NCBI GenBank assembly: GCA_017511865.1
Contig: JAFWIQ010000001.1
Location: 1 to 38,137 of the forward strand
Direction of reading: 5' to 3'
DNA from: Candidatus Saccharimonadota bacterium
GTDB lineage: Bacteria; Patescibacteriota; Saccharimonadia; Saccharimonadales; Saccharimonadaceae
Length of the DNA stretch: 38,137 bases
The position numbers and the translations under genes are program-made. The notes under the pieces are model-generated. The model was given only the letters and a program-made list of their open reading frames with translations, did no database searches and was not told the origin of the DNA. Below, piece after piece: positions 5,295 to 38,137 of the stretch. How positions within the stretch are numbered: position 1 is the stretch's first letter; the number at the start of each line of letters is the position of its first letter.

Positions 5295-7514
5295 TCAAAA
5301 CTTTAGTGCATTTTTCTTGTTGCGTATACGTTTGTGGATATTAAATACGACTATAGATGCCGTGATTATGGTGATGATGGAAATATTAATGATGGAGTGG
5401 GTTGGGCTGTTGTTTGTGTCGGTGCTGCTACCGGTGTTTGGAACAACTATAAACTCATCGTCTTCGTCTTCATCATCGTCTTCGTCTGGGGCGGGAGTGC
5501 TATTTTCTTCCCAAACCGCATAGATAGTCTTGTCAGCAGTTAAAGTAATTTCTGCTCCTGGCTGATAGGTGGCAGTGGTGGCAGAAGCATCATTTGCCCA
5601 ACCGAGGAAAGTATAACCTGCGCGAGTAGGTGTAGTGTCGCTGATGTTGATAGAGCAAGAGGTTTCAGCTCCAGAAATAGTGCAAGTTTGATCATCTGGA
5701 ATATTGCTTGCATCATCGGTATCGTTAGCATCGTAGCTTAGGGTAAAGGTGCTAGTATTTTCTTCCCAAACCGCATAGATAGTCTTGTCAGCAGTTAAAG
5801 TAATTTCTGCTCCTGGCTGATAGGTGGCAGTGGTGGCAGAAGCATCATTTGCCCAACCGAGGAAAGTATAACCTGTGCGAGCAGGTGTAGTGTCGCTGAT
5901 GTTGATAGAGCAAGAGGCAGTAGTGGTGCCAGTAGCGATAGCAGCGATGCAATTTTGCTCTAGAGTAGTACTCTCGTCGTAATTTTGATTTAGTGTTAAT
6001 ATGTGGGTTTGGATGTCTGACATTGCTTCATAACCGCAGTATGTTGTGCCGGCAGCATTGATAATGCAGCTGATTCCGTCTGCAGAATGGCCGGTGTATA
6101 GCTTGACGGCTTTATCTAGGGCATAGTATTGATATCTGGTCGCGTCGAAGGTAATTCTGTAACCACCAAGATTGTCTCTATATGTGGCAATGGAATAAGT
6201 AGAAGGTTTGTTTAGGTTAACTTCGTTGATGGCATCGGGGGCATTATTTAGGTGGTGATGAGCGGCTTGATAGATGGTGATATTGTTGACGGCTGCTTCA
6301 CCAAAATCGGTTTTGATTCTTTTGGCGATGTTGGTTTCACTTGGGACTTTGATGGTAGGATTAATGTTCGAAGGGTTAATTTCTCCGGTTTCGGAATTGT
6401 AAAAATCTTCTGGATTTTCGTAAAGCACCGTGTATCCGTTGGCGTAGATTCCGTCTTCTGGTGTTAGTCTATACCCAATATTTTCTAGATCGCTTGGGAA
6501 ATAGGCGTATTTTTTGGTATTAGTATTGTCTGTTACTTCTGCAAAAACAGCTAGGGAATTGCCGTTTGAATTACAATTTGAAACATTGCTGCTGACGTAT
6601 GCATAAAAGTATCGATCTAGCCCTCGTGCATTGTCGTTTTTTCGTATAAATTCGGGAGTAGTTTTGAGCTCAATATTTGGATATGTGCTTCCGTCAAAAT
6701 AGATATATTGGCCATTAAATTTTGTTATGGAGGCAGAGCTGTCTATTTGTTCTTGGCTTGAATATGCCGCGAATCTAACCATGTAACCTTTTTGGCAGGT
6801 TTGATTTTCGAAGACATCAGAAGTGTTGTAAATGTATAGATTTAGATAGTCGCCGATTGGGAATTTTTGTCCTTCTGTTAAATAGGAAAAATCATCATCT
6901 TGATAAACACTGGTTCCGACATTGTCGGTAGTGTAGATGTTGGCGCTAGCTGCTTTGGCGGCATTAATGATGGTCTCGAATTTATATGAGTTTAGATTGT
7001 TTTCTTCGTTGGTTTTTTCATATTTGACGATAACATTTTTTACTTCGAATCTACTTGTGTCTTCAAGTAGGCTTCTCGCATTGCCTACGTGGTCTGAGTG
7101 GAAATGAGAAATGATGAAATAGTCGATTGTGACTTTTTCTTTTTGTTGGTAGTCGTATAAATTATTGTAGATGGCATCTAGAAACTCGGAGTTTTTGCTG
7201 GCCGTATCGATAAGAACGTACTTGTCGTCGAATGTTTTTAAGATGATTGTTTCGTTGGAACGGTAATCGGTGCCAGATGGTGTAGTGTTGGGGAATTTGA
7301 CTTCGAACATGTTGTCGGATGACAAAAACGAGCCATCTGACGAGCCTGAGGTGGCGTCGGTGATTTCTTGTAAGTGAAGTGTGGCGGTGCTGGCGATAGT
7401 GAAAAATGTGGTTATGAGAATGAGGCTCAAATATTTGAGGTTGTGAGATAATTTTTCGCCTCTACCTAAAGATCCATATATAGATCTTTTAGACCTAAAA
7501 ATTTTGTTTTTCAT
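5295..7514 (-). CDS. Secreted metallo-beta-lactamase-fold protein with InlB-type repeats and C-terminal wall/membrane anchor
   Basis: 739 residues. A basic N-terminus and hydrophobic stretch (about 26-46) form a signal peptide or anchor. Next comes a metallo-beta-lactamase domain with SHFHSDHVGN (residues 136-145), the HxHxDH zinc motif of the hydrolase superfamily; order and spacing resemble ComEC-like or secreted MBL hydrolases, substrate unknown. Two Listeria-Bacteroides (InlB B / Flg_new) repeats follow, each with GYTFLGWANDASATTATY and ending TIYAVWEEN, then an acidic Asp/Glu linker, VPNTG, a hydrophobic helix and a basic tail (HKRIRNKK). VPNTG plus helix plus basic tail resembles a sortase signal (LPxTG variant); no sortase is in the window. 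The ATG has AAGG 10 bases upstream and a 17-spaced promoter further up. The duplicated repeat is nearly identical in DNA, so the array is young. Confidence 0.82.
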   Translation of the reverse strand: MKNKIFRSKRSIYGSLGRGEKLSHNLKYLSLILITTFFTIASTATLHLQEITDATSGSSDGSFLSSDNMFEVKFPNTTPSGTDYRSNETIILKTFDDKYVLIDTASKNSEFLDAIYNNLYDYQQKEKVTIDYFIISHFHSDHVGNARSLLEDTSRFEVKNVIVKYEKTNEENNLNSYKFETIINAAKAASANIYTTDNVGTSVYQDDDFSYLTEGQKFPIGDYLNLYIYNTSDVFENQTCQKGYMVRFAAYSSQEQIDSSASITKFNGQYIYFDGSTYPNIELKTTPEFIRKNDNARGLDRYFYAYVSSNVSNCNSNGNSLAVFAEVTDNTNTKKYAYFPSDLENIGYRLTPEDGIYANGYTVLYENPEDFYNSETGEINPSNINPTIKVPSETNIAKRIKTDFGEAAVNNITIYQAAHHHLNNAPDAINEVNLNKPSTYSIATYRDNLGGYRITFDATRYQYYALDKAVKLYTGHSADGISCIINAAGTTYCGYEAMSDIQTHILTLNQNYDESTTLEQNCIAAIATGTTTASCSINISDTTPARTGYTFLGWANDASATTATYQPGAEITLTADKTIYAVWEENTSTFTLSYDANDTDDASNIPDDQTCTISGAETSCSINISDTTPTRAGYTFLGWANDASATTATYQPGAEITLTADKTIYAVWEENSTPAPDEDDDEDEDDEFIVVPNTGSSTDTNNSPTHSIINISIITIITASIVVFNIHKRIRNKKNALKF
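5501..5917 (-). repeat. Direct repeat pair of 162 bp encoding two InlB-type repeats
   Basis: 5501-5662 and 5756-5917 are direct copies with offset 255. By eye they differ at two positions (gcgcgagtagg against gtgcgagcagg). The offset is a multiple of three, so gain or loss of a unit keeps the frame. Confidence 0.88.
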
Positions 7515-8970: not shown

Positions 8971-9055
8971 GCTCGGATGGCGGAACTGGTATACGCGTTC
9001 GACTTAAAATCGAATGGAGAAATCCGTGCGGGTTCGATTCCCGCTCCGAGCACCA
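8971..9055 (+). tRNA. tRNA-Leu (anticodon UAA)
   Basis: Acceptor GCTCGGA pairs with TCCGAGC; discriminator A and CCA are encoded (9052-9055). The anticodon loop CTTAAAA is at 9003-9009 with TAA at 9005-9007. A long variable arm and canonical T-loop (TTCGATT) fit leucine. A perfect TATAAT at 8957-8962 with an upstream TG (TGATATAAT) is the promoter. Confidence 0.96.
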
Positions 9056-9275
9056 AGATATGAAAAGAAGCCACTTGTGGCTTGTTTTTATATCTTTAGC
9101 GAGATCAGGGAAGAATTTCCCGCTCCGAGCACCAACACCTGATGGTGCACAAAAAATTGGAATCGTTTTTCAAATCGATTCCCGCTCCGAGCACCAAGAT
9201 ATGAAAAGAAGCCACTTGTGGCTTGTTTTTATATCTTTAGCGAGATCAGGGAAGAATTTCCCGCTCCGAGCACCA
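9034..9275 (+). repeat. Tandem 101-bp repeats carrying copies of the tRNA-Leu 3' end
   Basis: 9034-9134 and 9175-9275 are identical by eye, offset 141. Each contains an 18-bp copy of the tRNA-Leu 3' end (ttcccgctccgagcacca) at both of its ends, giving four copies in all: 9038-9055 (in the tRNA), 9117-9134, 9179-9196 and 9258-9275. Extra copies are preceded by short self-pairing sequence (ggaagaatttcc or gaatcg/cgattc), so each could fold a T-arm-like hairpin. Between the copies lies a long hairpin. No protein gene is convincing here; a translated frame through the repeat is an artefact. Confidence 0.9.
9056..9095 (+). terminator. Long hairpin directly after tRNA-Leu (terminator), copied at 9197-9236
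   Basis: Left arm 9056-9074, loop tt, right arm 9077-9095: 17 of 19 positions pair as Watson-Crick, with one G-U and one mismatch. The gccac/gtggc core followed by gttttt gives intrinsic-terminator form. It begins at the base after the encoded CCA. An exact second copy is at 9197-9236. Confidence 0.75.
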
Positions 9276-9291
9276 TTTTTTGTTGGTGGTT

Positions 9292-15856: not shown

Positions 15857-17962
15857 ATGGACAAAAAACAAGCGCAAGCGAGAATTGAAAAATTGAGGGA
15901 GCTGATTAATGATTATAGATATCATTATCATGTGTTAGATGAATCAATTATGAGTGAAGCGGCGGCGGATTCGTTGAAGCATGAGCTTAGTTTGTTGGAA
16001 GCAGAATATCCGGATTTGATTACGCCAGATTCACCGACTCAGCGGGTGGCTGGAAAACCTTTGGATAAATTTACAAAAGTAAAACATGAAAAAAGAATGA
16101 TTAGTCTTGCAGATGTGTTTTCGGAACAGGAAATTGAGGAATGGATTAATCGTAATGAAAAGTTGGTTTCTGGTGGTAAAATTGCAGAGTTTTTTACCGA
16201 TATTAAAATGGATGGGTTGGCTTGCGCGTTGAAATACAAAAATGGGATTTTTTATCAGGCGGTGACTAGGGGGGATGGACTGGTGGGGGAGGATGTGACG
16301 TTAAACGTAAAAACTATACAAAATATTCCGCTCAATTTAACTTTAGAAAACTCCAAGCCGTCTTTTTCGGGCACGGCGTCCTCGCGCTCGTCGTTACGGG
16401 GCTCGGATGCTCACTTGCTCCTCGTTAGTCGCAAAAGCCCCTCAAAGGAGGGTATTCCTTCTGAAGTTGAAGTACGTGGTGAGATTGTGATTTTTAAGGA
16501 GGATTTTGAACGCCTTAATGAAATTCAGCGTAAAAATGCTGAGGCGGAGTTTGCGAATCCGCGTAATCTTGCGGCGGGGTCGATTAGACAGCTTGATCCG
16601 AGAGTGGCGGCTGCGAGACCACTTAAATTTATTGCGTATGATTTGGTGACGCCAGATTTGCCGACATGGAAAGAAGCCTATGAAATGTTGAGGCGTTTGG
16701 GCTTTCAAACTTCAAACGAGGATAGGGTTTTTCAAGCTTCTGAGCGAAAAGAATTATTTGAATATATTAAAAATCTTGACGAATATCGTAAAGGTTTGAA
16801 ATTTAATACAGATGGAATGGTAATTAAGATTAATGATAGAAAAATTTATGATGAACTTGGGATAGTGGGTAAGACTCCACGTGGGGCGGTGGCGTTTAAA
16901 TTTCCGGCGGAGGAATCTACTACGGTAGTAAGAGATATTGTGATTTCGATTGGAAGGACTGGTGCGGCGACGCCGGTGGCGATTTTGGATCCAGTTTTGG
17001 TGGCTGGTACGACGGTGCGGCATGCGTCTTTGCATAATGCGGATGAAATTAAACGACTGGATGTGAGAGTTGGCGATACAGTAATTGTTTATAAGGCTGG
17101 TGATATTATCCCGCAGGTAAAAGAAGTTTTGACTTCTCTCAGGCCGGAAAATACAAAACCATTTGATTACGTTGAGGCGTTAAAAAATCAATATCCGGAT
17201 TTGGAATTTGAACGACCTAGTGGGGAGGTGGTTTATCGGGTGAAGGGGGAGTCTAGTGATTTTATTTTGAAGCGGGCGATAGAATATTATGCGAGTAAGC
17301 CAGCGCTTAATATTGAGGGTTTGGGTGAAAAAAATGTGGTAGCGTTGGTGGATGCTGGATTAGTGAAATCAATCGCGGATCTTTATAAATTGGATGAGAG
17401 AAAGGTTGCGCAGCTGGAGAGGTTTGGTGAGCTTTCGGCACATAATTTGATTACGGCGATTCAGAAATCAAAGGCGCCGTCGCTCAATAAATTTATTACG
17501 GCGCTTGGGGTTCGTCATGTGGGGGCGCAAACGGCGATGAGTTTGGCACGCGAATTTAAGAGTTTGGATAATTTAATCGAGGCGGCTGAGGATGATTTGC
17601 TGAGAATTCCGGATATTGGCGAAGTGGTTGCAGAGTCGATTTTGGCGTGGTTTGCGGATGAAGATAATTTGAAATTACTTTCTGAATTAAGAGAAATGGG
17701 TGTTTGGCCGGTTGATGAAAAAAACGATAATTTGCCACTTGTGGGAAAATCATATATTGTGACTGGGACTTTGGCGAGTATGGGGCGTGAAGAAGCGGAA
17801 GACAAATTGCGTGTGCTTGGCGCCACGGTAACTTCTTCGGTGACCAAAAACACTACGGCACTTATTGTGGGGGAGAAGCCGGGAAAATCTAAGATTGATA
17901 AGGCGGAGAAGTTGGGGATATCTCAAATTGATGAAAAAGAATTTTTGAAGTTGGTGGGGTGA
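15857..17962 (+). CDS. ligA: NAD-dependent DNA ligase LigA (zinc finger lost; internal insertion)
   Basis: Seals nicks in DNA replication and repair, using NAD+. Ia domain YHYHVLDESIMSEAAAD binds NMN; the adenylated lysine is in DIKMDG (Lys117); then VTRGDGLVGEDVTLNVKTI, RGEIVIF, NPRNLAAGSIRQLD, TDGMVIKIN, the OB fold (GRTGAATPVAILDPVLVAGT), four HhH motifs (NIEGLGEKN, PDIGEVVAES) and a C-terminal BRCT domain. Two deviations. First, between the OB fold and HhH the four-cysteine zinc finger is absent: the segment DYVEALKNQYPDLEFERPSG and what follows has no cysteine. Second, about 38 residues (162-200) of Ser-, Arg- and Leu-rich sequence are inserted in the nucleotidyltransferase domain. Total 701 residues. 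AAGG precedes the ATG. Confidence 0.95.
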   Translation: MDKKQAQARIEKLRELINDYRYHYHVLDESIMSEAAADSLKHELSLLEAEYPDLITPDSPTQRVAGKPLDKFTKVKHEKRMISLADVFSEQEIEEWINRNEKLVSGGKIAEFFTDIKMDGLACALKYKNGIFYQAVTRGDGLVGEDVTLNVKTIQNIPLNLTLENSKPSFSGTASSRSSLRGSDAHLLLVSRKSPSKEGIPSEVEVRGEIVIFKEDFERLNEIQRKNAEAEFANPRNLAAGSIRQLDPRVAAARPLKFIAYDLVTPDLPTWKEAYEMLRRLGFQTSNEDRVFQASERKELFEYIKNLDEYRKGLKFNTDGMVIKINDRKIYDELGIVGKTPRGAVAFKFPAEESTTVVRDIVISIGRTGAATPVAILDPVLVAGTTVRHASLHNADEIKRLDVRVGDTVIVYKAGDIIPQVKEVLTSLRPENTKPFDYVEALKNQYPDLEFERPSGEVVYRVKGESSDFILKRAIEYYASKPALNIEGLGEKNVVALVDAGLVKSIADLYKLDERKVAQLERFGELSAHNLITAIQKSKAPSLNKFITALGVRHVGAQTAMSLAREFKSLDNLIEAAEDDLLRIPDIGEVVAESILAWFADEDNLKLLSELREMGVWPVDEKNDNLPLVGKSYIVTGTLASMGREEAEDKLRVLGATVTSSVTKNTTALIVGEKPGKSKIDKAEKLGISQIDEKEFLKLVG
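16342..16455 (+). repeat. In-frame insertion inside ligA
   Basis: The stretch interrupts the conserved run between IPLNL and EVEVRGEI. It is more GC-rich than the gene around it and has many TCG, CGC and GGGGC words (for example gcgctcgtcgttacggggct at 16384-16403). Its arms pair only weakly (ctcc/ggag). It shares no clear core with the uvrD/pepN element, but the word AAGTGAGCA in its complement also occurs in the hairpin cluster after ligA. Boundaries are approximate. Confidence 0.5.
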
Positions 17963-23654: not shown

Positions 23655-25268
23655 ATGAATAAAATGTTTTCATTGCTGAGAGCGTCGATGTCGGAGGGGA
23701 TGAATATTTTTCGAATCAGCGGTAGAAAACAATCAAAAGTAATGAGGATTGGGTTGCCAATTATTGTGGCTGTGCTTTTGATGTTTTCGGTAGGTTTTTA
23801 TGCAGATATGATGATGGAGCCACTGGCGGAAGTCGGTATGGAATTCGTAGTTTTGACTTTGTTTGTGGTTATTGGTGCGCTGTTCATTCTCGTGGAAGGA
23901 GTATATAAAGCAAGTGGGTTATTGTTTAATTGCCGTGATGACGACATGCTACTTTCCTTACCGATAAAAAAGTCGACCGTGTTGTTTGTGCGGATTTTGA
24001 AATTCTATTTTTTTCAGGTGATGGTAAATGCCTTAATATTGTTGCCGGCGATGATTGCGTATGCGATGAGGGTGGATGTGGGGGCAACTTTTTATTTGGT
24101 GTCGGGAATGGCGTTATTGGTTTTGCCGATGTTGCCGGTGGCGATTGCGTGTGCGATAGGTAGCGTGATTGCGTTTTTTTCGGCGAAGTTTCGGTTCAAA
24201 AGTTTTGCGCAAATTATCATAACGACTTTATTTCTTTTGGTGTTAATGTATGCGTCGTTTAATATGCAAGACATTGTAAGATTGTTGGCGGAAAATGCAA
24301 CAAGCGTTAATGAAATTATTACGAAATTATATTTTCCAGCGGGAGAATATGTTGGTCTAGTGGCTGATTTTAAGGGCTTGGATTTGGTGAAGTTTCTTGG
24401 CATTAATTTTGGGATTTTTGGAGTTTTGGTGGCTATACTTGGTAGCGTATATTATAAAATTAACTCGCGCGTGAAGGTGGTGAAGAGCGATATCCGGAAA
24501 AAAGAATATAAAATTAGGGCTACATCTCCGCTACTAGCCTTGATAAAAAAAGAGGCTAGTAAGTTTACAAGTTCGCCGGTCTTTGTAATAAATGCAGGAT
24601 TTGGCTTAGTTTTATTTGTGGTGGCCTGCATATTGATATGCGTTAATATTCAAGAAATATTAAAAATGTTTGCTGGGTATGGGGTTGGGGTGTCGGCGGA
24701 ATTTATTATTGGGAATATGCCGGTGGTGCTATTTGGTTTGGTGGTTTTTGCTTCGATGACGTCGTCGATTACAAGCTCGATGATTTCGCTTGAGGGAAAG
24801 TCGTTTAATATTTTAAAGAGTTTGCCAGTAAGACCCGTGACGATTATTTTGGCAAAAGTTTTGACAGCGGTGTTTATTATGGTGCCGTTTATTTTGTTGG
24901 GGGATTTGATTATGTTTGTTAATTTCGAGTTTAGTGTTTGGCAGATTGTGCTGATTTTGGTCGCTTCGGTAATTTGGCCACTAGTAGCGGAGATGGTTGG
25001 GATAATTGTAAATTTGAAGTATCCAAAAATGGATGCAAAAAATGATACCGAAGTAGTGAAACAAAGTATGAGTTCGGCGGTGTCGGTGTTCGTGGGGATT
25101 GGGGTGGTTGGTGTGATGGTTTATTTGATATATATGGCGATTAAGAATGGGTTTGACATGACTTTGTTTATTGCGATGGGGACTTTGTTTGGTGCGGTGA
25201 TTTTGGCTGGTCTTTTGATTTATTTGAAGCTTAAGGGTGCGAAGGAGTTTAATTCTATCAATGTCTGA
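23655..25268 (+). CDS. ABC-2 type transporter permease
   Basis: 537 residues, about 12 hydrophobic helices in two groups of six with a charged central stretch (YYKINSRVKVVKSDIRKKEYK). Residues 1-35 are basic and cytosolic. LLFNCRDDDMLLSLPIKKST and MISLEGKSFNILKSLPVRPVT, one in each half, resemble the coupling motifs of the two-domain exporter permeases next to such ATPases in Firmicutes. Starts directly after the ATPase stop (TAA then ATG). Its last eight bases overlap the start of uvrD (ATGTCTGA). Substrate not predictable. Confidence 0.85.
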   Translation: MNKMFSLLRASMSEGMNIFRISGRKQSKVMRIGLPIIVAVLLMFSVGFYADMMMEPLAEVGMEFVVLTLFVVIGALFILVEGVYKASGLLFNCRDDDMLLSLPIKKSTVLFVRILKFYFFQVMVNALILLPAMIAYAMRVDVGATFYLVSGMALLVLPMLPVAIACAIGSVIAFFSAKFRFKSFAQIIITTLFLLVLMYASFNMQDIVRLLAENATSVNEIITKLYFPAGEYVGLVADFKGLDLVKFLGINFGIFGVLVAILGSVYYKINSRVKVVKSDIRKKEYKIRATSPLLALIKKEASKFTSSPVFVINAGFGLVLFVVACILICVNIQEILKMFAGYGVGVSAEFIIGNMPVVLFGLVVFASMTSSITSSMISLEGKSFNILKSLPVRPVTIILAKVLTAVFIMVPFILLGDLIMFVNFEFSVWQIVLILVASVIWPLVAEMVGIIVNLKYPKMDAKNDTEVVKQSMSSAVSVFVGIGVVGVMVYLIYMAIKNGFDMTLFIAMGTLFGAVILAGLLIYLKLKGAKEFNSINV

Positions 25269-27360
25269 TGAAATTTTGGAAGGATTAAACTCGCGCCAGA
25301 GGGAGGCGGTGGAGATATTGGAAGGACCGGTGTTGATTTTGGCTGGTGCTGGTTCTGGAAAAACTAAGACTTTGACACATAGAATTGCGAATTTGATTGC
25401 CCATGGAGTGCAGCCATCTAATATTCTCGCTGTAACGTTTACGAATAAGGCTGCGAAAGAAATGCGTGAGAGGTTGTGGTCGCTTATATCTCGTTCAGGG
25501 CCGCGTCCGTCCGGCCCGTCGCCACGGGCGGACGGCGCTAACTCTCGCGCTGCCGCGCTCCGAAATATCCCGAACCGAGACATAAGCGACCAACCCCCAC
25601 GGAGTTTCATGCCTTATATGGGGACGTTTCATGGAATTGCGGTGAGGATTTTGAGGATTGAGGCTGATGCGATAGGGCTAGACCGAAATTTTGTAATTTA
25701 TGATACGGATGATCAAATTTCTTTGATTCGGCGAATTATGCGAGATTTGAAATTGTCGGATAATAAAAATTTAAAGCCAAAATCGATTCAATCGATTATC
25801 TCGGGCGAAAAAAATCAAGGAAATGGGCCAGATGAGTATGCGGCGAATGCATTTTATCCGAATCAAAAAAACATTGCAAAGATTTTTAGAAAATACGAAG
25901 AAGAGAAGACAAAAGCAGGGGCATTGGATTTTGATGATTTGTTGTTGAAAGAATTGGAATTATTACAAAAACATCCGGAAATTAGAAAAAAATGGCAGGA
26001 AAAATTTAAGCATATTTTGGTTGACGAATATCAGGATACTAATCATGTGCAATACAATATAGTAAAATTGCTTACCAATGATAAAAAGAATGTTTGCGTA
26101 GTGGGTGATGATTGGCAGTCTATATATTCGTGGCGAGGGGCGGATTTTATGAATATCTTGAATTTTGAAAAGGATTTTCCGGGGGCAAAAGTAATAAAAT
26201 TGGAGCAGAATTATCGTTCGACAGGGAATATTTTGGAGGCGGCACAAAAAATAATTAATGAAAATAAGACGCGGACGGAAAAGATTTTGTTTACTGAAGC
26301 GGGGAAGGGAGAGCCGGTAGATATAGAATCTTTGAGAGATGAGACGGCGGAGGCAAACTATGTGGCGCTTTCTATTTTGAATATGCAAAAGGAATATCCA
26401 GATTTTAGTGATTTTGCGGTACTTTATCGGACCAATGCGCAATCATATACTTTTGAAAAAGCGTTTATTGATTTGCATATTCCGTATAAGATTGTGGGTG
26501 GGGTGAGATTTTATGATCGGAAGGAAGTGAAGGATGTGTTGGCGATTTTGAGGTTAATCGTAAACCAACGCGATAAAGTGAGTTTGACTAGAGTAGTGCA
26601 AAATGTGTTGTCGGGAATTGGGGAGGCGTCCTTGGCGAAAGTTTTGGTAGCGATGGATGCGATAGGTGGCACGGAGCCGCTACTTGATGCGGATTTGCCA
26701 GAAGTATTAAAAGCTGGTAAAGCTAAAAACGCCTTGCTTAGATTGGTGAATTTTGTGCGAAAAAATTTGGGAAGGAAAGACCCTGGAGGTATTGTAAAAG
26801 ATGCTGTGGAATATTTTGATTTTAAAGTTTTGACCGATGACGGAACGCCAAGTGGTGATGAGCGGATGGCAAACCTTGAGGTTTTGGCGGCGAATGCGGC
26901 TACATATGGTGATTTGGAAGATTTTTTGGCGGATGCAAGTTTGATGTCGTCGGTGGATGAGAGTTCGGGCAAAAATGCTGTGACTTTGATGACGATGCAT
27001 GCAGCTAAAGGTTTAGAGTTTCCGGTGGTATTTATGGTGGGGATGGAAGAAGGGCTTTTTCCTAGTTCGCGAGCGGCCGAAGAGCAGGAGGGGTTGGAGG
27101 AAGAACGGCGGTTGGCGTATGTGGGAATGACGCGGGCAATGCGAAAGTTATTTTTGACATATGCGGCATCTAGATATGCCTATGGGAGTAGAAACTACAA
27201 TATGCCATCGAGATTTTTGATGGAGCTGGGGTACAATCCGTATGGGTCGTCTGGATATAGGGACGAAGACGGTGATGGATTTACGGATGGGGGTGGTTTT
27301 GACGATTTTAGTGAAGGCGATTTTGATCCGTTTCCGGAAGATTTGCCGATTTACGAGTAG
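25261..27360 (+). CDS. uvrD: UvrD/PcrA-type DNA helicase (with in-frame palindromic element)
   Basis: SF1A 3'-5' helicase acting in repair and in clearing protein from DNA. Motifs in order: Q motif LNSRQREAV, motif I LAGAGSGKTKTLTHRI, Ia VTFTNKAAKEM, TFHGIAVRIL, II ILVDEYQDTN, III VGDDWQSIYSWRGA, IV LEQNYRS, V MTMHAAKGLEFPVVFM, VI EERRLAYVGMTRA. 699 residues with ATG at 25261, which overlaps the permease stop; AAGGAG is 13 bases upstream. Residues about 73-111 (RSGPRPSGPSPRADG and on) have no counterpart in the family and coincide with the GC-rich palindromic element, between motifs Ia and Ib of domain 1A. The C-terminal 40 residues are Gly/Asp-rich. Confidence 0.94.
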   Translation: MSDEILEGLNSRQREAVEILEGPVLILAGAGSGKTKTLTHRIANLIAHGVQPSNILAVTFTNKAAKEMRERLWSLISRSGPRPSGPSPRADGANSRAAALRNIPNRDISDQPPRSFMPYMGTFHGIAVRILRIEADAIGLDRNFVIYDTDDQISLIRRIMRDLKLSDNKNLKPKSIQSIISGEKNQGNGPDEYAANAFYPNQKNIAKIFRKYEEEKTKAGALDFDDLLLKELELLQKHPEIRKKWQEKFKHILVDEYQDTNHVQYNIVKLLTNDKKNVCVVGDDWQSIYSWRGADFMNILNFEKDFPGAKVIKLEQNYRSTGNILEAAQKIINENKTRTEKILFTEAGKGEPVDIESLRDETAEANYVALSILNMQKEYPDFSDFAVLYRTNAQSYTFEKAFIDLHIPYKIVGGVRFYDRKEVKDVLAILRLIVNQRDKVSLTRVVQNVLSGIGEASLAKVLVAMDAIGGTEPLLDADLPEVLKAGKAKNALLRLVNFVRKNLGRKDPGGIVKDAVEYFDFKVLTDDGTPSGDERMANLEVLAANAATYGDLEDFLADASLMSSVDESSGKNAVTLMTMHAAKGLEFPVVFMVGMEEGLFPSSRAAEEQEGLEEERRLAYVGMTRAMRKLFLTYAASRYAYGSRNYNMPSRFLMELGYNPYGSSGYRDEDGDGFTDGGGFDDFSEGDFDPFPEDLPIYE
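25477..25592 (-). mobile_element. In-frame GC-rich palindromic element in uvrD (copy 1)
   Basis: 116 bp with inverted outer arms (tggtcgcttatatctcg at 25477-25493; complement of cgagacataagcgacca at 25576-25592, one mismatch) and an inner hairpin built from ccgtccg/cggacgg and cccgt/acggg. A 70-bp core (25498-25567) equals 35381-35450 of the aminopeptidase gene in reverse complement, with one mismatch by eye. The reading frame of uvrD stays open through it. It resembles Rickettsia palindromic elements in habit. Boundaries come from the inverted arms and are approximate. Confidence 0.85.
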
Positions 27361-34883: not shown

Positions 34884-34896
34884 GTTGGAGGTAGGC

Positions 34897-37389
34897 GTGG
34901 AAAAATTATTGGATTATTTTGTGCCAGAAAAGTATATACTGGATATTGCGATTGATAAGCATGCAAAGACGATTGATGGGGTGGTTGTGGTTTTGGGCGA
35001 AGTTTTGCAGGAGACGGTGAAGTTTCATGCGGTTGATTTGAAAATAACAGACGTACTGGTGAATGGTAAAAAAGTCAAATTTGAGGCGGATGGAGAGGTG
35101 CTGGAGATTCCTGGAACGAAGCTAGGCGAAGCGGAAATTACTATATATTATAATGGTACGTTGAATGAAAATATGGAGGGGGCGTATTTGTCTACCTATG
35201 AACATGAAGGCAGAACCGAAACGATTGTGGCGACGCAGTTTGAATCGCATTATGCGCGAGAGGCGTTTCCATGTATTGATGAGCCAGCAGCCAAAGCGGT
35301 GTTTGAGTTGACACTGTCTGTGCCGGATACGGAGGATATGATTTTGGCTAATACGCCAGAGGCTAAAGTTCAACTCGGGGTATTTCGGAGCGCGGCAGCG
35401 CGAGAGATAGCGCCGTCCGCCCGTGGCGACGGGCCGGACGGACGCGGCCCCGAGGTGAATTTTAGCTCTGGTGGTAAAACAATATCGTTTGAACCGACGC
35501 CAAGAATGTCAACATATTTACTAGCTTGGGTGATTGGGAAATTTCATGGTAAGACAGTGACAAATAAACATGGCGTAGAAATTACGACTTATTGCGCTTT
35601 AAATCAAAACGTAGATGCGGTGGATTTTGCAAATGAAATTGCGGCTAAGAGTTTGGAGTTTTATGATGATAATTTTGGGGTGCCATATCCTTTAAAAAAA
35701 TTGGATCAAGTGGCTTTGCCAGATTTTGAAGCAGGTGCGATGGAAAACTGGGGATTAGTAACTTATCGCGAGTCGATGTTGCTTGTTGGGGAATCTGCGA
35801 CTTTGGGAGATAAAAAAAGCGTAGCAATGACGGTGGCGCATGAGTTGTCACACCAATGGTTTGGTGATCTAGTGACGATGGCATGGTGGGATGATTTGTG
35901 GCTGAATGAATCTTTTGCTTCAATAATGGAGTATTATGCAGTAGATGCTATCCATCCAGAATACAAAATTTTTGAGGGATTTTTTACGCGAGATTGCTGT
36001 GCGGCGCTACTGAGAGATGCTTATTTTGGCGTGCAGTCAGTACATCAAGAAGTGAAGGACCCGGCGGAAATTGCAACATTGTTTGACGCTGCAATTGTGT
36101 ATGCAAAAGGGGCAAGGTTGATGCTGATGGTGATTAGGTTGATGGGATGGGAAAACTTTTGCAAAGGAATTAAAGATTATTTTAAGAAGTTTCAATATAA
36201 AAATACAGTTGGCGATGATTTGTGGAATAGCCTGAAGCCGTATGCAGATTTTGATCCAAAGAAATTGGTACATGCGTTTATTGATGAGCCTGGTTATCCG
36301 GTAATTACGAATGAGGCTGGGGATTTTGATAAGTTTTCGCAGAAGAGATTTTTGCTTGACGGGCCTTTGGTGGAGGAAGAGTGGCCGTTGCCAGAGATTG
36401 CGGAAGACATGTCTGGGCATTACATTTTGAATTTGAGCGAAAAAGAATTTAAACAGCGTTTAGAGAATTTTGACGAGTTGGGGATTGAAGAAAAATTGCG
36501 GTTACTGATTGATCGGGATTTGGTTACGAAGTCTGGATTACAAAGTGCGACATCTTTGGTTCCGTTGGCTTTGGAATTTAAAAATAACGATTCGGCTTCG
36601 GTGTGGAATAAAGTTGCAGGGTTGATGGGCAATTTGGGTATATATTTTGATGATGATTCGGAAGAAGAAAAGTTATTTAAGAAATATGTTTTGCAGTTGG
36701 TTGATGAAAAATTAAACGAAGTGGGGATAAAAACGAGACAAGGCGATGATGAAAATATGATTCGTCTGCGAGCGAATTTGATGGGGTTGGATTATTTTGC
36801 GGAGGACGTGGATAGATTTAAGATTCTCGCAAAAATGTATGATGATGATTATAACAAAATGGATTCGGAGGTTCGGAGTGATATTTTGAGCGCAAAGGTC
36901 TATTTGGAGCCAGAAATTGTAGATGAGTTTTTGGAAAAATATAAGACAATAGTGGATCCGGATGTGAAATTTGACTTCTTGGCGGCGGCGACTTTGGTAA
37001 AGGATGAGAAATATTTGGAAAAAATGCTGAATTTGCTTGGAGATATTAAGATTGTGAAGCCACAAGATCAGTTATATTTATTTGTTTATCTTTATCGGAA
37101 TCCCAAGTCCAAAAAACAGACGTTTGAGTGGTTGACGAAGCATTGGAAGCTGGTGAAAGAGATGGGCGGAGAAAAAACGCTTAGCGATTATCCAATGTTG
37201 GTTGCAAGGTTAGCGAGAACGGAAGAAGAATTGGAAAAATTTGTGGAGTTCTTTGGGCCAATGCGAGAAGATTCGGCTTTGAAACGGGCGATTGAAATCG
37301 GCGAAAATGAGATTCGGGCAAGGGTAAAATTGATTCGTGAGAATAAAGACGCGGTATATAAAACTTTGAAGAAATATACTATTGTATGA
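34897..37389 (+). CDS. pepN: M1 family aminopeptidase (PepN/ERAP-like), with in-frame palindromic element
   Basis: Removes N-terminal residues from peptides, probably finishing products of FtsH and other proteases. 830 residues. N-terminal beta domain, then GAMENWGLVTYRE near residue 280, zinc site HELSHQWFGDLVT with NESFA downstream, and the long helical C-terminal domain. GTG at 34897 is preferred since GGAGG lies five bases upstream; an in-frame TTG four codons earlier overlaps the ribosome site. Residues about 156-190 (VFRSAAAREIAPSARG and on) are not family sequence; they are encoded by the same GC-rich palindromic element found reversed in uvrD. They fall between the beta strands of the N-terminal domain, where a loop could accept them. 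Confidence 0.94.
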   Translation: MEKLLDYFVPEKYILDIAIDKHAKTIDGVVVVLGEVLQETVKFHAVDLKITDVLVNGKKVKFEADGEVLEIPGTKLGEAEITIYYNGTLNENMEGAYLSTYEHEGRTETIVATQFESHYAREAFPCIDEPAAKAVFELTLSVPDTEDMILANTPEAKVQLGVFRSAAAREIAPSARGDGPDGRGPEVNFSSGGKTISFEPTPRMSTYLLAWVIGKFHGKTVTNKHGVEITTYCALNQNVDAVDFANEIAAKSLEFYDDNFGVPYPLKKLDQVALPDFEAGAMENWGLVTYRESMLLVGESATLGDKKSVAMTVAHELSHQWFGDLVTMAWWDDLWLNESFASIMEYYAVDAIHPEYKIFEGFFTRDCCAALLRDAYFGVQSVHQEVKDPAEIATLFDAAIVYAKGARLMLMVIRLMGWENFCKGIKDYFKKFQYKNTVGDDLWNSLKPYADFDPKKLVHAFIDEPGYPVITNEAGDFDKFSQKRFLLDGPLVEEEWPLPEIAEDMSGHYILNLSEKEFKQRLENFDELGIEEKLRLLIDRDLVTKSGLQSATSLVPLALEFKNNDSASVWNKVAGLMGNLGIYFDDDSEEEKLFKKYVLQLVDEKLNEVGIKTRQGDDENMIRLRANLMGLDYFAEDVDRFKILAKMYDDDYNKMDSEVRSDILSAKVYLEPEIVDEFLEKYKTIVDPDVKFDFLAAATLVKDEKYLEKMLNLLGDIKIVKPQDQLYLFVYLYRNPKSKKQTFEWLTKHWKLVKEMGGEKTLSDYPMLVARLARTEEELEKFVEFFGPMREDSALKRAIEIGENEIRARVKLIRENKDAVYKTLKKYTIV
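35364..35464 (+). mobile_element. In-frame GC-rich palindromic element in pepN (copy 2)
   Basis: 101 bp. Outer arms taaagttcaactcgggg (35364-35380) and ccccgaggtgaatttta (35448-35464) pair with one G-U and one mismatch; the inner ccgtccg/cggacgg hairpin is as in copy 1. Core 35381-35450 matches copy 1 reversed with one mismatch in 70. The outer arms differ from those of copy 1, yet are self-complementary in each. The frame is kept. Confidence 0.87.
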
Positions 37390-37651: not shown

Positions 37652-38137
37652 CTAATCAAGCGATTGTTTTAAGGTTTCTAGTGATTTTGGAGGTACCTGA
37701 GCTTCATAAAGAGCGCCATTCCACCCTCCAACCAGCATATTACCATTAGGAAGAGGGGAGATGGCATAGATGTTAGTTTCATCGCCATCTTTATCCTCAA
37801 ATCCTTCAATACGATGTTCACTTAGTTTATAAGAGCCATCTGGTTGTTTTTGGTATTCATAAAGAACACTATCTCCTCCAATTAGCATATTACCATTAGG
37901 AAGAGGGGAGATGGTATGGATGTCTGTTTCATCGCCGTCTTTATCCTCAAATCCTTCAATACGATGTTCACTTAGTTTATAAGAGCCATCTGGTTGTTTC
38001 TGGTACTCATAAAGAGCGCCGTAATGTCCTCCAATTAGCATATTACCATTAGGAAGAGGGGAGATGGTATGGATGTCTGTTTCATCGCCGTCTTTATCCT
38101 CAAATCCTTCAATACGATGTTCACTTAGTTTATAAGA
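37652..38137 (-). CDS. Tandem-repeat (beta-propeller-like) protein, partial at the window edge
   Basis: The C-terminal 161 residues are in the window; the frame is open to the right edge, so the start is outside. It consists of units of 50-51 residues, each with HRIEGFEDKDGDET, ISPLPNGNML(I/V)GG, ALYEYQKQPDGSYKLS. The pattern of a glycine-rich strand followed by YEY and a polar loop resembles blades of a WD40- or PQQ-like propeller, usually used for binding. No signal can be judged without the N-terminus. The last unit diverges and ends AQVPPKSLETLKQSLD, a probable cap. Units are almost identical at DNA level, so they arose recently. Stop TAG at 37652-37654. Confidence 0.75.
   Translation of the reverse strand, partial: SYKLSEHRIEGFEDKDGDETDIHTISPLPNGNMLIGGHYGALYEYQKQPDGSYKLSEHRIEGFEDKDGDETDIHTISPLPNGNMLIGGDSVLYEYQKQPDGSYKLSEHRIEGFEDKDGDETNIYAISPLPNGNMLVGGWNGALYEAQVPPKSLETLKQSLD
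37824..38137 (-). repeat. Tandem DNA repeats of 150-153 bp in the propeller-like gene
   Basis: The block cttagtttataaga recurs at 37821, 37971 and 38124, giving spacings of 150 and 153 (one codon difference). Long stretches between are identical by eye. The array continues beyond the window. Confidence 0.9.

Follow-up and report, generated by a model that had tools for sequence, protein, structure and literature searches.

A mobile palindromic element in Saccharibacteria with a stem probably built in part from inverted host sequence

Hairpins found within protein-coding genes of the Saccharibacteria genus Nanosyncoccus are probably copies of a non-autonomous mobile palindromic element in which only the core moves and about 20 nt of one target flank is inverted onto the far side of the core. 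In textbook insertion, short stretches of the target end up as direct repeats. Here the repeat of the target is inverted, with many natural examples within important genes of ultra-small bacteria, and such an inverted target duplication, if true, would set the outcome apart from transposition that duplicates the target site directly.

Results

Two hairpins with a common core and different arms

In the window, by which we mean the whole 38,137-nt stretch of Nanosyncoccus DNA that was analysed, pepN and uvrD each hold a good hairpin copy and ligA holds a decayed one:

15857–17962, plus strand: host gene ligA, reading frame open across the element
16369–16441, minus strand: divergent core copy within ligA, arms decayed
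25237–27360, plus strand: host gene for a UvrD/Rep-type helicase, reading frame open across the element
25475–25494, plus strand: gene-left arm of the uvrD copy, native host codons LWSLI (left arm p 0.0037)
25495–25573, minus strand: mobile core in uvrD, antisense to the gene, 96% identity with the pepN core
25574–25593, plus strand: gene-right arm of the uvrD copy, CGAGACATAAGCGACCA, an inverted copy
34885–37389, plus strand: host gene for a pepN-like aminopeptidase, reading frame open across the element
35355–35374, plus strand: left arm of the pepN copy, 20 nt, GCCAGAGGCTAAAGTTCAAC, native host codons PEAKV
35375–35453, plus strand: mobile core in pepN, 79 nt, with outer stem TCGGGG/CCCCGA, hairpin P2 with tandem G.A and long hairpin P3
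35454–35473, plus strand: right arm of the pepN copy, an imperfect inverted copy of the left arm, contains AGCTCTGG

The arms quoted in the initial annotation lie where it had placed them, with taaagttcaactcgggg at 35364–35380 and ccccgaggtgaatttta at 35449–35465 in pepN, and tggtcgcttatatctcg at 25477–25493 and cgagacataagcgacca at 25576–25592 in uvrD, although the pepN arm is really about 20 nt long (35355–35374 and 35454–35473). The two copies also have, as it had proposed, a common 79-nt core that is 96% identical between them, and arms that differ. Folded as single-stranded DNA, they gave z scores of -8.0 and -7.4 and none of 200 shuffles was as good, so this folding is not due to chance.

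The mobile unit is a core of ~73–79 nt that forms a covarying three-way junction, made up of an outer stem stub (TCGGGG/CCCCGA, or GA-GGG/CCC-GA with a tandem G.A), P2 with its tandem G.A and the long P3. From a first consensus alignment, which included very divergent cores, RNAalifold recovered part of the structure, and a cleaner alignment of 50 sequences was then used. In these 50 sequences 90.7% of cells are paired in the drawn structure, compared to 72.6% when shuffled and 36–45% when slid, and over all the variable core stems there are 455 double-changed cells against 152 when shuffled. Covariation of this kind does not on its own prove that a stem functions as RNA. We found no fixed terminal inverted repeats; the shared sequence stops at the 6-nt stem stub, and the arms beyond it are site-specific.

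Related units were also seen. A longer unit of 121 nt (L270, L222, L056, L260, L264 and others) ends in GGTGRC and (C/A)CAGGACC and has its own site-specific outer arms of ~10 nt, and L114, L066 and L233 carry a third core type between the ends of this 121-nt unit. The copy L126, in uvrD of genome G035, has a different core of 31 nt with near-perfect arms of 24 nt in the same uvrD loop, and represents another core type with the same architecture.

The element is concentrated in one family

In total 243 hairpin copies were collected. In the genome that contains the window, DNA and covariance-model searches found at least 14 copies, with the ligA copy as one more. In a class-level sample of 244 genomes, the element is present in 58 of the 63 genomes of the same genus and in 9 further genomes from three other genera of the same family, and was not found in the rest of the class. 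A phylum-level sample gave two single matches in other families, one of which (L357) has near-perfect arms of 27 nt, and a Nomurabacteria genome holds one copy with the same arm architecture. The per-genome counts in these large searches are lower bounds, with few candidates scored. The matches that a 19-mer scan gave in Streptomyces, Bacteroidales and other GC-rich sequence were rejected as chance. The element was not found in a plasmid collection, an Rfam search gave chance-level matches only, with no family above its gathering score, and we found no description of the element in the published literature.

Arms belong to the site and not to the core

The initial annotation, made from the pepN and uvrD copies, had claimed that the outer arms differ between copies and are self-complementary in each. 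This holds generally: across 115 copies the true flank pairs have a median pairing score of 14, compared to ~4 for swapped pairs, and nearly every copy has self-complementary arms of ~20 nt. Arm length is nearly constant, because in the aligned arms (larger, GA subfamily) the mismatch rate is ~5% at each position through position 20, rising to 12–31% further out. An anchored ungapped pairing test, which is blurred by bulges, reached background near 19–20 nt.

It is the core alone that moves, and the arm sequence tracks the site and not the element. Among copies at different sites, 126 pairs have cores with 0–3 mismatches between them; their flanks diverge at the core edge, with an identity of 0.25–0.66 over the first 7 nt and near chance past ~7–12 nt. 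In genome G004 three copies agree throughout their 73-nt cores, while their arm pairs are unrelated to one another and each is self-complementary, and an identical-core trio in G026 shows the same. In the 121-nt structural subfamily and the L090/L070/L192 group some arm sequence travels with the unit, so the arms are not always entirely new.

The arms also have features of their own. One-base bulges recur at fixed distances (near 6 on the right side, near 12–14 on the left), there are weak base preferences, and mismatches are present in young copies too. Counted symmetrically within the arm and in the orientation of the core, arm mismatches are 141 G.T against 27 A.C (~5:1), in sense and antisense copies alike; this count replaces one of 153 to 71 that extended past the arm. 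An earlier count in gene orientation, with the mRNA as reference, gave 71 G.T against 78 A.C and thus no bias.

One arm matches the host protein at several sites

The initial annotation had further suggested that one arm is host coding sequence and that the insertion copied its target in inverted form. We aligned, as protein, orthologous genes that lack the element. An arm matches the host protein at p<0.01 in 23 of 272 arm tests (2.7 expected), and at least one arm does so at 14 of the 72 sites with empty orthologs, on one side only at 12 sites and on both sides at 2. The site count is the safer of the two, because copies that share a site are not independent. Nativeness can be read at a minority of sites, because relatives are ~75–87% identical at most of them and the insertion loops are hypervariable.

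Inverted copying is clearest at three sites, in each of which one arm is kept in the empty genes and the other, its inverted copy, is absent from them. In L028 the left arm, KDVFLR, is kept (KDILL/KDIFLR), while the right arm encodes the extra residues RRETSLL. In L039, within a tRNA-synthetase-like gene, EIEF of the left arm is kept; in L077, within an Obg-like gene, it is VLLADL of the right arm, so that the native arm may be on either side of the core. L028 and L039 are young copies with identical-core sisters. In uvrD, the empty genes keep RLW.LL before PPRSF; the gene-left arm of the window's copy consists of the WSLI codons, and its gene-right arm encodes extra residues, RDISDQ, with no clear counterpart in the empty orthologs. 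In pepN, the filled orthologs have ...ATGCCAGAA..AAAGTT in common in the region left of the core.

However, the close empty site for L192, L241 (87% identity), contains neither arm. The pepN site L109 was considered as an empty site and rejected, as it keeps GAAGCTTCTGG and looks like a relic from which the core was deleted. For the window's own copies no strain-level empty allele was found, the nearest pepN relatives being ~72–79% identical. No direct target-site duplication is apparent in the filled and empty comparisons that were read, in which no empty allele is near-identical. The prediction of one native arm and one inverted copy is partly supported, holding at the clearly readable sites with one counter-example.

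Cores flip in place and arms change together

About 205 of 242 copies (~85%) lie within open reading frames of at least 360 nt that are open across the element, and the core runs sense to the gene in 93 of them and antisense in 112, close to random. The pepN core is without stops in five of six frames, which would allow frame-keeping insertions to survive. Between L256 and L240, whose flanks are 95% identical, the whole hairpin including its arms and bulge is inverted in place, and 88 of 236 orthologous filled pairs have cores in opposite orientation, some of which may instead be independent insertions at one hot spot. Across species the pepN arms change together, drifting yet remaining complementary. 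The presence of copies varies widely between species, and many sites are common to several species.

Polymerase template switching between inverted repeats is known to homogenise their arms and to invert the spacer between them, also in coding DNA (PMC8604942, PMC8794818), and this published type of mutation explains both the flipping and the arm correction. The proposal in the initial annotation of template switching at a hairpin therefore stands for the changes seen between relatives; insertion itself, for which we found neither an intermediate nor an enzyme, may also use it.

Discussion

How the core inserts and first gains its arms we infer as follows. Only the structured core of ~73–79 nt is mobile. 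Its insertion, possibly as a foldback single strand, would go together with DNA synthesis, by snap-back or template switching, across the neighbouring flank, so that ~20 nt of one target flank is duplicated and inverted across the core from the original. Each copy would then come to form the tip of a stem in which one arm is native to the host and the other is its inverted copy. Hairpin-driven template switching of the same kind could later correct the arms and flip the core. A stronger version, which we hold tentatively and with slightly less than even confidence, is that insertion obligatorily makes this ~20-nt inverted duplication on one side, with self-primed (snap-back) synthesis along the core strand as a possible route.

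Several observations do not fit easily with the main model. One is the empty site with neither arm (L192/L241); bulges at fixed distances and weak base preferences are not expected under plain copying, and the G.T excess follows the core orientation, which plain homogenisation does not predict. This excess reflects either recognition of the folded core strand or polymerase G.T mispairs that persist in an inverted copy made on that strand; self-primed synthesis on that strand would account for the bias too.

Recognition of the folded strand leads to the main alternative, which we consider possible but distinctly less probable than our model. Here a dedicated enzyme would recognise the folded single strand (ssDNA or RNA, in either case in the core orientation) including the bulged arm helix, like a structure-specific recombinase; host sequence would be recruited to the stem during the reaction and selection for the fold would keep the arms, with wobble tolerated. 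The covariation in all variable stems, the conserved tandem G.A, the fixed bulge positions, the arm base preferences and the G.T excess, alike in sense and antisense copies, are all consistent with this. However, we found no transposase candidate for mobility. An HUH Y1 transposase (PF01797), as an IS200/IS605 or REP/RAYT system would have, occurs in 1 of 40 genus genomes and in no copy-rich one, and was rejected as the mover because it is not where the copies are. Reverse transcriptases (RVT_1), which a retroelement such as a group II intron, DGR or retron derivative would call for, occur in 25 of the 40 and yet are missing from the copy-rich G000, G004, G018, G025, G026 and G029, and were rejected for this absence. 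Furthermore, selection for mobility would be hard to sustain at individual sites, and the arms have decayed in old copies such as that in ligA. On the side of hairpin persistence, SbcD was found above cut-off in none of the 40 genomes, with positive controls in E. coli and B. subtilis, and the absence of the hairpin nuclease SbcCD may favour persistence of the element.

The remaining explanations account for less of the data. That gene conversion swaps cores among ancient hairpins, with the arms being old site features and identical cores not recent insertions, would fit the many sites common to several species and the GC-rich core found identical at distant loci of one genome, but it is improbable given how widely presence and absence differ among species and given that L028 and L039, young copies that have identical-core sisters and a native arm, do have true empty genes. 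Weak arm base preferences could point to targets with a pre-existing inverted repeat, both arms being already there; this we think very unlikely, as clear empty orthologs of the uvrD, L039, L077 and L028 genes hold one arm only. Some mitochondrial hairpins are bypassed in translation, and a role of the stable stem in the host mRNA (splicing, bypass or regulation), with the arms kept by selection on the transcript, could be imagined. We rejected this as the least probable: the orientation relative to the gene is random, and the frames are open across the element so that simple translation is possible. A G.T bias that follows the core, equally in sense and antisense copies, and disappears with the mRNA as reference argues that the mRNA is not what is selected.

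We prefer core insertion with inverted copying of one flank, and compared such an element to known systems. In-frame palindromic elements are a known kind, and it is the host-built stem that is new. Rickettsia palindromic elements (RPEs) are short dispersed palindromic repeats, often in-frame inside unrelated protein genes, in a reduced bacterial genome (PMC10969869). Compared by description only, the element here is likewise dispersed, multicopy, palindromic and in-frame in protein genes. However, the descriptions of RPEs give families of ~150 bp that have a conserved peptide of their own, whereas the core here is ~79 nt, its stem extends into site-specific host-built arms and its orientation is often reversed between copies at a shared site. 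Template-switch mutation at (quasi)palindromes produces arm homogenisation, stem extension via insertion in one stem half and loop or spacer inversion (PMC8604942, PMC8794818, PMC7202029), but does so locally, in inverted repeats that stay in place; here a mobile core occupies hundreds of sites with near-constant arm length. Nematomorpha mitochondria have long inverted repeats in protein genes, with concerted arm evolution and suspected template switching (PMC6649704), but those repeats are not described as having a mobile core in common, and conserved residues are encoded in both of their arms, whereas here one arm is native.

MITEs, IS200/IS605-type elements and integron attC folded-strand substrates are, like the element here, small, non-coding and hairpin-forming, and its fixed extrahelical bases recall attC. 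In contrast to these systems, it has no direct target duplication that we could see, no matching Y1 transposase and no fixed terminal inverted repeats past the stem stub. The element offers a natural system for testing hairpin-driven template switching. It also provides a way to study how a non-coding unit can spread in coding regions while the genes survive, and how stems whose arms change in concert can arise when the mRNA is not under selection.

Other repeats in the window

Two direct repeats of 114 nt, 95% identical, lie at 9034–9288, the first overlapping the 3' end of a tRNA (8971–9052). A surface-type protein at 5295–7514 (minus strand) contains a pair of nearly identical repeats (99% at the DNA level) and carries a VPNTG-like sorting motif at its C-terminus, and a propeller-like protein at 37652–38137 (minus strand), with tandem repeats of ~50 amino acids, runs past the contig end.
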